A stretch of 64,000 nt of DNA, taken from positions 1 through 64,000 of IMG/VR virus record IMGVR_UViG_3300026512_000005. The stretch is one strand, 5' to 3'. Positions within the stretch are counted from its first letter, which is position 1. Each line of letters opens with the position of its first letter. The DNA is from a virus. Below the pieces are notes generated by a model that was not told where the DNA came from, ran no database searches, and saw nothing but the letters and a program-made list of their open reading frames with translations. Both the position numbers and the translations under genes were made by a program. Shown piece after piece: positions 47,212 to 49,772 of the stretch.

Positions 47212-47535
47212 TCATCCGAATACAGCTATTTTTTTGTTGTCAATAATATTGCCTGTTACAGTTTCATACCACATAATGGAAGCATGTTTCATTAATTTAG
47301 TAAATTTAATGTTAAAACCTGTACTAGCTTCTAAGTTGTGTAACTTAACATATTCCTTATGTGGGTGAGTTATGTTCGTATACTCCTGTTTCAATCTCTG
47401 ACAAATATCATTGAATTCATGGTCGTTAAATATACTCACATCTAACTTGTAATAAAGATAAGAGGACATTATATAAAACGGTACGAGTTTATTTACACCT
47501 ACATCTTGTAAATCTCTATAACTTTGCACTACCAT
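47212..47535 (-). CDS. Small protein resembling NAD-ligase domain Ia
   Basis: 107 residues. Residues 20-50 (FYIMSSYLYYKLDVSIFNDHEFNDI, landmark SSYLYYKLD and NDHEFNDI) resemble the YYxxDxPxxxDxEYDxL segment of domain Ia in NAD-dependent DNA ligases, which grips NAD. No adenylation domain follows, so it is not a ligase by itself. Similar short phage proteins of unknown role exist. The start overlaps the helicase stop by one base (TAATG). Function uncertain. Confidence 0.7.
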   Translation of the reverse strand: MVVQSYRDLQDVGVNKLVPFYIMSSYLYYKLDVSIFNDHEFNDICQRLKQEYTNITHPHKEYVKLHNLEASTGFNIKFTKLMKHASIMWYETVTGNIIDNKKIAVFG

Positions 47536-49772
47536 TATATAAAACCTCTATATTCTATATTACGAACAGATTTGGATGTCTTCTTAAATAAATCTATACG
47601 ATTAACATTATATCGTTTATGTGGCCGTATGTCGCTGGACCATGTGTACGCATATATCAATTTCTTGTCTTCTATAAAACGTAGACGACCTTTTGACTGT
47701 GTGTTTGATTGTTTAGAATCGGTATTAACTGTATTAAGTACAGATATAAGATTGGGTATATCCAGAGCTGTACTAGCTGACCCTAACGTTGATACTATAA
47801 AATCATTGGCTGCTATTACTGAATAACTATCTTCCTCTGTATATTTAGTTACTTTTATATTCGGGTGTTTACGCTGGATATAATCTACCACAATTGTACA
47901 CATTTTAACTGTACCCATAAACACTAACATTTTCTCGTCGTTTAGTCTATGCTTGAAAAAGATATTCTTACTAATACTATTTATCATGTCCAGGTAGTTG
48001 CGAAGTGTAGGCCCATGCTTAATAATTGACTTCTCAAATGCTGATTGGTTATATCCAAAATGATTCTTAAATTTAATCATTCTACTATTCTTAAATCTAA
48101 AACGTATAGATAATATGTCTACATATTTTTTAGCAGTAATAACATTAGATATTCTATTATAAAGTGGAAAACCTATTTCATACATTTTATTAATATACTT
48201 ATCACTATGTTGTAGTGTGGCCGTTAAACCCAATGTTAGTCTGTTATTACAAAAGAGCATAAAATTATATACATTAAAAAATTCTTGATGACTCTCATCA
48301 TTGAGGACTATGTCAACACCTAACGCCTCCGTTATGACCTCTGGTGATAAATCTAAACCACCCGTTATAGTATTTGTTAAATATGATTTAATAAACCCTC
48401 TGATAGTAGTTAGTGATATTATATAGCACTTATACTTTTTATGTATACCCTCAGTAGTTATTGCTTCTATAAGACTCTGACCACCTTGTATGACTAATAT
48501 CTCATCACGTTTTATATCAGTTAGATATAGCACATCATTTATCCATTTCTCTAGGTATCTAGGTAAGACAATAATAGCAAATAAACGTTTAAGTTCCGAT
48601 ATGACCGACATGGAAATAAATGTATTATGCGTTACTATATAATCCTTAACAACAAATAATTTACTCTCATTATCAACGGCGATACATATTGCCTCTTTAC
48701 TCTTATCTAATATATTATAACTAACTAGATATGTACGTCTCATCCGTCTGTTATAGGCTAGTTCATAAACTCCTTTATTGCGTTTAATATTAATAGTATA
48801 TCCTAGTTTATAAATAATCTTTTTTAACGCATCTACAAGGATACCCTGCTCCGTCCTGAATAGAACTTCGTCATCTATAATATCGGTAGATAGTTTCTCA
48901 AGAACATATTCTATGTCGTCATACTTTAATGTTAGTAACATATCACTTATAATCGTTGGTATGGTATGTGTAGTCTTAATAGTTTTTATAATAGTATTAA
49001 GTCTACTGGTACTTATCTTTACATCACTTGTATTACCAATAGAGTTGTATCCTGGTATATAGACTTCTTTATTGGAATCTAGTGAACGCATTATAGACTT
49101 TGTGTTACGTACACCCCTGTTTGTCTTCCACAAATGCTCGTAACCGGACTCAATAACCCTACCATCATTTGTCGTAAATTCTATAATTGGTTTATATCCC
49201 TGTGGATAGACTCCAATTACATTAGTTGGTTTTCCGTCATTACCTGTAACTTTATCGCCAACCTTTATATCGCCTAGGATACGCCAACCATCTGGAGTTA
49301 ATATTGGTGTATCTATAGGCATTTCTTTACCGTAACCTGGGTCTAAATCTACTAACACATTATGCCTAGACCACGAGGTAATTTTATCTATGAAGACGAT
49401 TTGATATGTTCTACGTATTAACTCTTTGTTTATATTAAGTATAATGGGGTATGATTGGTGTATTTTGTTTTCTACAATGACAACTTCATCCAACTTTTTT
49501 ATATTCCTCAAGTACGTATATAAATCATCTAGTAACGATATAGGATAGCGTATGACATTTTTGCTAGCCCTATTATCGGGATGTTCCGTTTCTATGATAT
49601 AAAGTTGTTTATCAACAGCCTTGATAACTTCTGGCTGTTTACCTCGTATACGTTTATCTAATTTCATCGTGTAGGTTACCAACGTCTTATTAAACTCGTG
49701 TAGTAAAAAAACTAACTTGGAAAAGTTTAAATCGGTTATGGTAAAATACTGGCTGTACTTTTGTATTGTCAT
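47535..49772 (-). CDS. SF2 DNA helicase (UvsW-like) interrupted by an intein
   Basis: 745 residues. After removal of residues 150-383 the protein reads ...VDLDPGYGK-TFISMSV..., a complete Walker A. Other SF2 motifs follow: VLNDESHQ (DExH box), LGLTATL (motif III), a C-terminal domain with VFMGTVKM and a QSKGRLRF motif. This order fits UvsW-type helicases that remodel recombination intermediates and R-loops in T4. Splicing is needed to restore the ATP site. AAAAAGGATTATAAAT before the ATG. It follows the RNA polymerase beta'C gene after a hairpin terminator. Confidence 0.88.
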   Translation of the reverse strand: MTIQKYSQYFTITDLNFSKLVFLLHEFNKTLVTYTMKLDKRIRGKQPEVIKAVDKQLYIIETEHPDNRASKNVIRYPISLLDDLYTYLRNIKKLDEVVIVENKIHQSYPIILNINKELIRRTYQIVFIDKITSWSRHNVLVDLDPGYGKEMPIDTPILTPDGWRILGDIKVGDKVTGNDGKPTNVIGVYPQGYKPIIEFTTNDGRVIESGYEHLWKTNRGVRNTKSIMRSLDSNKEVYIPGYNSIGNTSDVKISTSRLNTIIKTIKTTHTIPTIISDMLLTLKYDDIEYVLEKLSTDIIDDEVLFRTEQGILVDALKKIIYKLGYTINIKRNKGVYELAYNRRMRRTYLVSYNILDKSKEAICIAVDNESKLFVVKDYIVTHNTFISMSVISELKRLFAIIVLPRYLEKWINDVLYLTDIKRDEILVIQGGQSLIEAITTEGIHKKYKCYIISLTTIRGFIKSYLTNTITGGLDLSPEVITEALGVDIVLNDESHQEFFNVYNFMLFCNNRLTLGLTATLQHSDKYINKMYEIGFPLYNRISNVITAKKYVDILSIRFRFKNSRMIKFKNHFGYNQSAFEKSIIKHGPTLRNYLDMINSISKNIFFKHRLNDEKMLVFMGTVKMCTIVVDYIQRKHPNIKVTKYTEEDSYSVIAANDFIVSTLGSASTALDIPNLISVLNTVNTDSKQSNTQSKGRLRFIEDKKLIYAYTWSSDIRPHKRYNVNRIDLFKKTSKSVRNIEYRGFI
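48624..49325 (-). other. Intein (residues 150-383) in the Walker A loop of the helicase
   Basis: The N-terminal splicing block is EMPIDTPILTPDGW then GDIKVGDKVTGNDGKP; block B is ESGYEHLWKT; the C-terminal end is LFVVKDYIVTHN followed by T384 of the extein. The first residue is Glu rather than Cys or Ser, which would require a non-classical first step. Residues about 275-345 (ISDMLLTLKYDDIEYVLEKL and VDALKKIIYKLGYTINIKR) look like a degenerate half of a LAGLIDADG endonuclease. About 234 residues. Confidence 0.85.

Follow-up and report, generated by a model that had tools for sequence, protein, structure and literature searches.

Evidence for a class 3 intein with a decayed endonuclease in the P-loop of a jumbo-phage SF2 helicase

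A DNA helicase gene interrupted by an insert of 234 amino acids was identified in the window, the 64,000-nucleotide stretch of viral DNA analysed here (positions 1 to 64,000 of IMG/VR record IMGVR_UViG_3300026512_000005). With high confidence, this insert is a class 3 intein located at the P-loop GK/T site (the slash marks the insertion point) of a phiKZ-group jumbo-phage SF2 helicase, similar to a mini-intein and with a decayed LAGLIDADG endonuclease. A sequence-only reading had described residues 150-383 of the precursor as an intein with N-terminal, B-block and C-terminal splicing motifs, and this was confirmed by the presence of blocks A, B, F and G (Table 1). In that reading block F was left unnamed, though the key nucleophile Cys214 is located there.

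The helicase and the insertion site

The 745-residue protein was matched to the DNA helicase family phrog_16 (E 3.8e-19), and both exteins and all helicase motifs are intact within a single open reading frame. The model of the C-extein revealed a generic SF2 helicase/translocase fold, with Snf2, XPB and FANCM/Hef as the nearest structures. The protein had been designated a UvsW-like helicase. The SF2 fold is clear, but a specific tie to UvsW is not, since the C-extein is nearest to Snf2, XPB and FANCM and the label derives only from the annotation of homologues; UvsW itself has been described as confined to another jumbo-phage group (PMC7824862). Judging from the model, 'UvsW-like' should be taken to denote an SF2 helicase which is annotated as UvsW-like in its relatives.

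A sequence search with the C-extein gave no match in the PDB. For the protein, no match was obtained in NCBIfam and only Hint matches below threshold were obtained in Pfam, because the family is too divergent for these profiles. A scan of viral contigs with the whole protein identified no relative, and the helicase alignment contained no stretch sufficiently conserved to serve as a scan pattern.

In the window, the helicase gene comes after two genes for RNA polymerase subunits (phrog_3015 and phrog_3295), and several jumbo phages of the phiKZ group likewise have an RNA polymerase subunit gene ahead of it. In two further viral contigs, a distant version of the helicase without an intein match was found adjoining an RNA polymerase subunit gene. 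Several phage records designate the intein-bearing helicase as 'terminase large subunit' or 'DnaB'; here, the match behind the automatic annotation was probably to the intein rather than to its host protein. The window protein is matched in the same way by phrog_19299 and others, via the intein.

Table 1. Features of the intein-interrupted helicase gene (positions in the window)
Feature	Position	Strand	Evidence
SF2 (UvsW-like/Snf2-like) DNA helicase precursor, 745 aa, intein-interrupted	47535..49772	-	ORF; phrog_16; helicase-annotated relatives; C-extein model
N-extein (residues 1-149), up to and including GYGK, the first Walker A half	49326..49772	-	alignment to intein-free homologues; coordinates
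Class 3 intein, residues 150-383, 234 aa, Glu1 to Asn234	48624..49325	-	
Block A, intein residues 1-13, EMPIDTPILTPDG, residue 1 = Glu	49287..49325	-	
Block B with His64-Leu65-Trp66 (HLW); Trp66 = W of WCT	49125..49166	-	no variation at H64 or W66 among 44 inteins
LAGLIDADG homing endonuclease remnant, first half lost, second degenerate	48750..49037	-	
Block F, containing the predicted initiating nucleophile Cys214 (48684-48686; C of WCT)	48660..48707	-	invariant; aligns with 6rix and 6bs8
Block G (YIVTHN), with Thr232 as T of WCT, His233 as penultimate and Asn234 as last residue	48624..48647	-	invariant in 44-intein alignment
Thr+1 (Thr384), second splicing nucleophile; Walker A threonine once spliced	48621..48623	-	
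C-extein, residues 384-745: TFIS..., DESH, SF2 helicase body	47538..48623	-	
DESH, motif II in the C-extein	48288-48299	-	

The intein interrupts the Walker A loop (GYGK/TFIS) precisely at the junction of Lys149 and Thr384. The coordinates and the alignment to intein-free homologues agree on this point, and the earlier statement that GYGK is split from TFIS holds. In an alignment of 12 homologous helicases, an insert is present at the same bond in EL, AhC3_1, LucasX, Rebecca, VP4B, AerS_266, KpLz-2_45 and FishSpeaker. A normal helicase insertion shared with intein-free homologues, which had been named as the finding that would speak against an intein, was looked for in the same alignment; the intein-free proteins of DT01, Moabite and Eowyn are uninterrupted and continuous through G-x-G-K-[T/S].

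The Serratia phages Haymo and Moabite belong to one species and represent the filled and the empty site, respectively, and the DNA identities of their helicase exteins are 100% and 98.8%. Compared to Moabite, Haymo contains 348 extra codons, precisely at AAG/ACG (Lys/Thr). Because this junction is exact and the homologues are uninterrupted at the site, the insert is a mobile element and not a domain of the helicase. Both phages have been isolated and, as a natural before-and-after pair, lend themselves to tests of homing and of the intein's effect. In the window, the insert is not clearly marked by its GC content, and neither a second intein nor a further LAGLIDADG_3 domain was found on the 115,990-base viral contig to which the window belongs.

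Class 3 signature and relation to known inteins

All PDB matches of the whole helicase were inteins: 6rix (E 1.4e-12) and 6bs8 (1.1e-11), both class 3 inteins of DnaB, and gp41-1 at 2.6e-08 or weaker; the intein match is far beyond chance. Class 3 inteins are defined by the WCT triplet, which consists of Trp at B:12, Cys at F:4 and Thr at G:5 (PMC3196547, PMC7891396). In the window intein, these positions are occupied by Trp66, Cys214 and Thr232, and the internal nucleophile that was to be sought by alignment to known class 3 inteins was thus found as Cys214. His64, His233, Asn234 and Thr384 at position +1 are present in addition. The intein starts with the codon GAA (49323-49325) for Glu, a non-nucleophilic residue, and its C-terminal end reads ...VTHN, followed by Thr384. 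The Cys or Ser which serves as nucleophile at residue 1 in class 1 inteins is missing, in agreement with the earlier view that a classical class 1 mechanism is unlikely.

Nine phage inteins from the same site were gathered by similarity of the whole helicase and not by intein motifs, and their invariant residues include H64, L65, W66, C214, T232, H233 and N234. A profile built from these nine aligns the His-Trp of block B, the Cys of block F and the THN end with 6rix and 6bs8. An alignment of 44 diverse phage inteins has no invariant columns apart from G13, H64, W66, C214, T232, H233 and N234; the patterns used to find the 43 relatives in this set included the CI and VTHN motifs, and the invariance of Cys and THN is partly by construction, while Trp66 and the nine-phage set are unaffected. 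The AlphaFold2 model of the intein has a mean pLDDT of 92.2. In a Foldseek comparison of this model to the PDB, ranks 1-7 were all class 3 inteins and rank 8 was an engineered gp41-1 with the WCT triplet, with unmodified class 1 inteins ranking lower.

The sequence-only reading had drawn attention to glutamate at residue 1, which proved to be no surprise. In 68 related inteins sharing less than 85% identity, the first residue is Ala in 46, Glu in nine, Met in five, Ser in five, and Val, Pro and Ile in one each, which makes Glu the second commonest first residue. Glu1 is not anomalous, because residue 1 is not used as a nucleophile by class 3 inteins; a non-nucleophilic first residue is ordinary in this class, and a likely misreading is hereby corrected.

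Helicase inteins of the phiKZ group are present in EL ORF040, LucasX_80, Rebecca gp251, VP4B gp095, AerS_266, AhC3_1 ORF149, KpLz-2_45, FishSpeaker and Haymo gp291. These share with the window the helicase gene, the GK/T point, the class 3 residues and, in several cases, the RNA polymerase subunit neighbour, and the AhC3_1 intein also starts with Glu. However, they are only 26-34% identical to the window intein, and the LAGLIDADG motifs, degenerate in the window, are kept in LucasX, Rebecca, AerS_266 and FishSpeaker. In an intein tree based on few columns, the splicing domain from the window is placed on a long branch (1.23) without a well supported partner; the inteins of this helicase cluster in the tree beyond chance (6 changes vs 15.9 in shuffles).

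The class 3 inteins M. smegmatis DnaBi1 (6bs8) and M. chimaera DnaB1 (6rix) are the top fold matches and contain the WCT residues at the same positions; DnaBi1 is also located in a P-loop (PMC6195587). In contrast to the window intein with its 234 amino acids, they comprise 139-146 amino acids without an endonuclease domain, their host is the replicative helicase DnaB, and DnaBi1 has a second cysteine acting as a redox toggle, which the window intein lacks. GK/T is a classic P-loop intein site, and the TerL1-a P-loop inteins of mycobacteriophages likewise interrupt Walker A between its invariant Lys and Thr (PMC5050341); their host is a terminase and not a helicase, and the likeness is noted for the insertion point alone. 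The class 1 intein gp41-1 (6qaz) resembles the window intein in fold and strongly in blocks A and B, but starts with Cys and contains Asp instead of Cys in block F (PMC7664689); 6riz is its C1A, F65W, D107C variant.

The endonuclease remnant and inteins in relatives

The decayed LAGLIDADG-like half noted earlier was located between blocks B and F. Its second LAGLIDADG motif reads VLEKLSTDII (48876-48905), where relatives have LLRGLMDTDG or similar, and the intein model retains an alpha/beta half domain at the position of the endonuclease. LAGLIDADG_3 matches were obtained for relatives such as LucasX, Rebecca and AerS_266, while PF14528 was not matched in the window intein or elsewhere on its contig. 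The two motifs with catalytic acidic residues that mark an active LAGLIDADG endonuclease are not present. As judged from the sequence, homing activity is very unlikely, and the mobility of the intein is probably gone, because the first half of the endonuclease and most of the LAGLIDADG motif have been lost.

The closest relative of the helicase is encoded on contig IMGVR_UViG_3300026521_000161 (2989-4581), with exteins 49% identical to those in the window. It contains a class 3 intein of 531 amino acids at the same site, with two tandem LAGLIDADG endonucleases, of which the first is decayed and the second intact. Residues 3-220 of this intein align with a normal intein front and residues 283-531 with the endonuclease and the C-terminal half; it looks like a decayed intein that was partly overwritten by a fresh one. 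On the same contig, a different gene (coding for a putative ATPase/Snf2-like protein) contains a second class 3-like intein at DLGAGQGK/MEKNG...THN/TFSS.

For Serratia phage 2050HW (MF285618.1, 251338-255858), the helicase has been annotated as two ORFs, with the frame change inside the intein endonuclease. In the near-identical phage BUCT660 (99.88% identity to 2050HW, with two gap positions over 4.2 kb), the helicase is encoded in one open frame. A conserved natural split intein in 2050HW was rejected on account of the intact frame in BUCT660, and the frame change is attributed to a one-off frameshift or a sequencing error.

Splicing and the role of the intein

The class 3 splicing pathway has been established (PMC4031507, PMC7891396). 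The anatomy, the class signature, the junctions, the fold and the filled and empty sites described above are observations, and splicing by the window copy is what we infer. In the proposed reaction, Cys214 would attack the Lys149-Glu1 peptide bond with the aid of His64 and Thr232, so that the N-extein is held as a thioester. The N-extein would then be moved to the side chain of Thr+1, and cyclisation of Asn234 with the help of His233 would release the intein. A final O-to-N acyl shift would yield GYGK-TFIS and with it the complete Walker A loop in a joined helicase of 511 aa, with no part for Glu1 as a nucleophile. For the P-loop intein of Pyrococcus RadA, a report cited in PMC8557812 states that ATPase activity is disrupted without splicing. 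By analogy, it can soundly be expected that the helicase precursor lacks ATPase activity or ATP binding until it is spliced.

Most likely, the intein would be a constitutively splicing selfish element which is unable to home unaided, and which would be retained because it can be lost only by exact deletion from an important gene. It had been suggested that splicing acts as a switch controlling the helicase, and no positive evidence for this was obtained. Such an intein, like M. smegmatis DnaBi1, would silence the helicase and be spliced out only once a signal allowed it. Splicing of DnaBi1 is blocked in vivo by H2O2 and reactive chlorine; oxidation pauses it by joining the catalytic cysteine to another cysteine of the intein in a disulfide (PMC6195587, PMC8557812). 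The window intein shares its class and its P-loop placement with DnaBi1, and decay of the endonuclease with intact splicing blocks is also expected if splicing is kept for use. However, a DnaBi1-type toggle is unavailable, because the intein has no cysteine besides Cys214 and no disulfide can be formed within it; the three other cysteines of the helicase (positions 449, 508 and 625) are all located in the C-extein. Moreover, intein-free relatives, including that in the same-species phage pair, manage without the intein, which suggests that the helicase works in its absence, and the patchy distribution fits a selfish element. A conditional switch is considered unlikely, and the selfish element is the preferred reading. 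It is quite unlikely that the intein is kept as a timer or sensor of the helicase that works without an internal disulfide, for instance by metal binding or sulfenation at Cys214, by an extein cysteine, or by compartment-dependent splicing in a nucleus-forming phage.

A splicing-dead pseudogene intein, with the helicase made as precursor only and the changes at residue 1 and in the endonuclease as marks of decay, is judged very unlikely. The endonuclease is degenerate, and splicing failure has been documented in class 3, where some inteins with good-looking sequences, such as Arth_1007, are dead (PMC3196547). However, all catalytic residues are intact, as are the exteins and helicase motifs in one open frame, and Glu1 is common among the relatives. 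A domain insertion could in principle split Walker A, but a normal insertion domain has practically no probability, as has a class 1 or class 2 intein, and all three were rejected on the uninterrupted homologues, the intein fold, the full WCT signature and a residue 1 that is not Cys, Ser or Thr.

Public sequences already include examples of this intein class, of its P-loop site and of the gene, and the window shows no departure from this known type; a discussion of the helicase site across jumbo phages as a group was not found in the literature searched. The window intein adds a clean case to the P-loop inteins of class 3. The GK/T site in the SF2 helicase of phiKZ-group jumbo phages has been occupied repeatedly, and its filled, empty, endonuclease-intact and endonuclease-decayed states are all on record.
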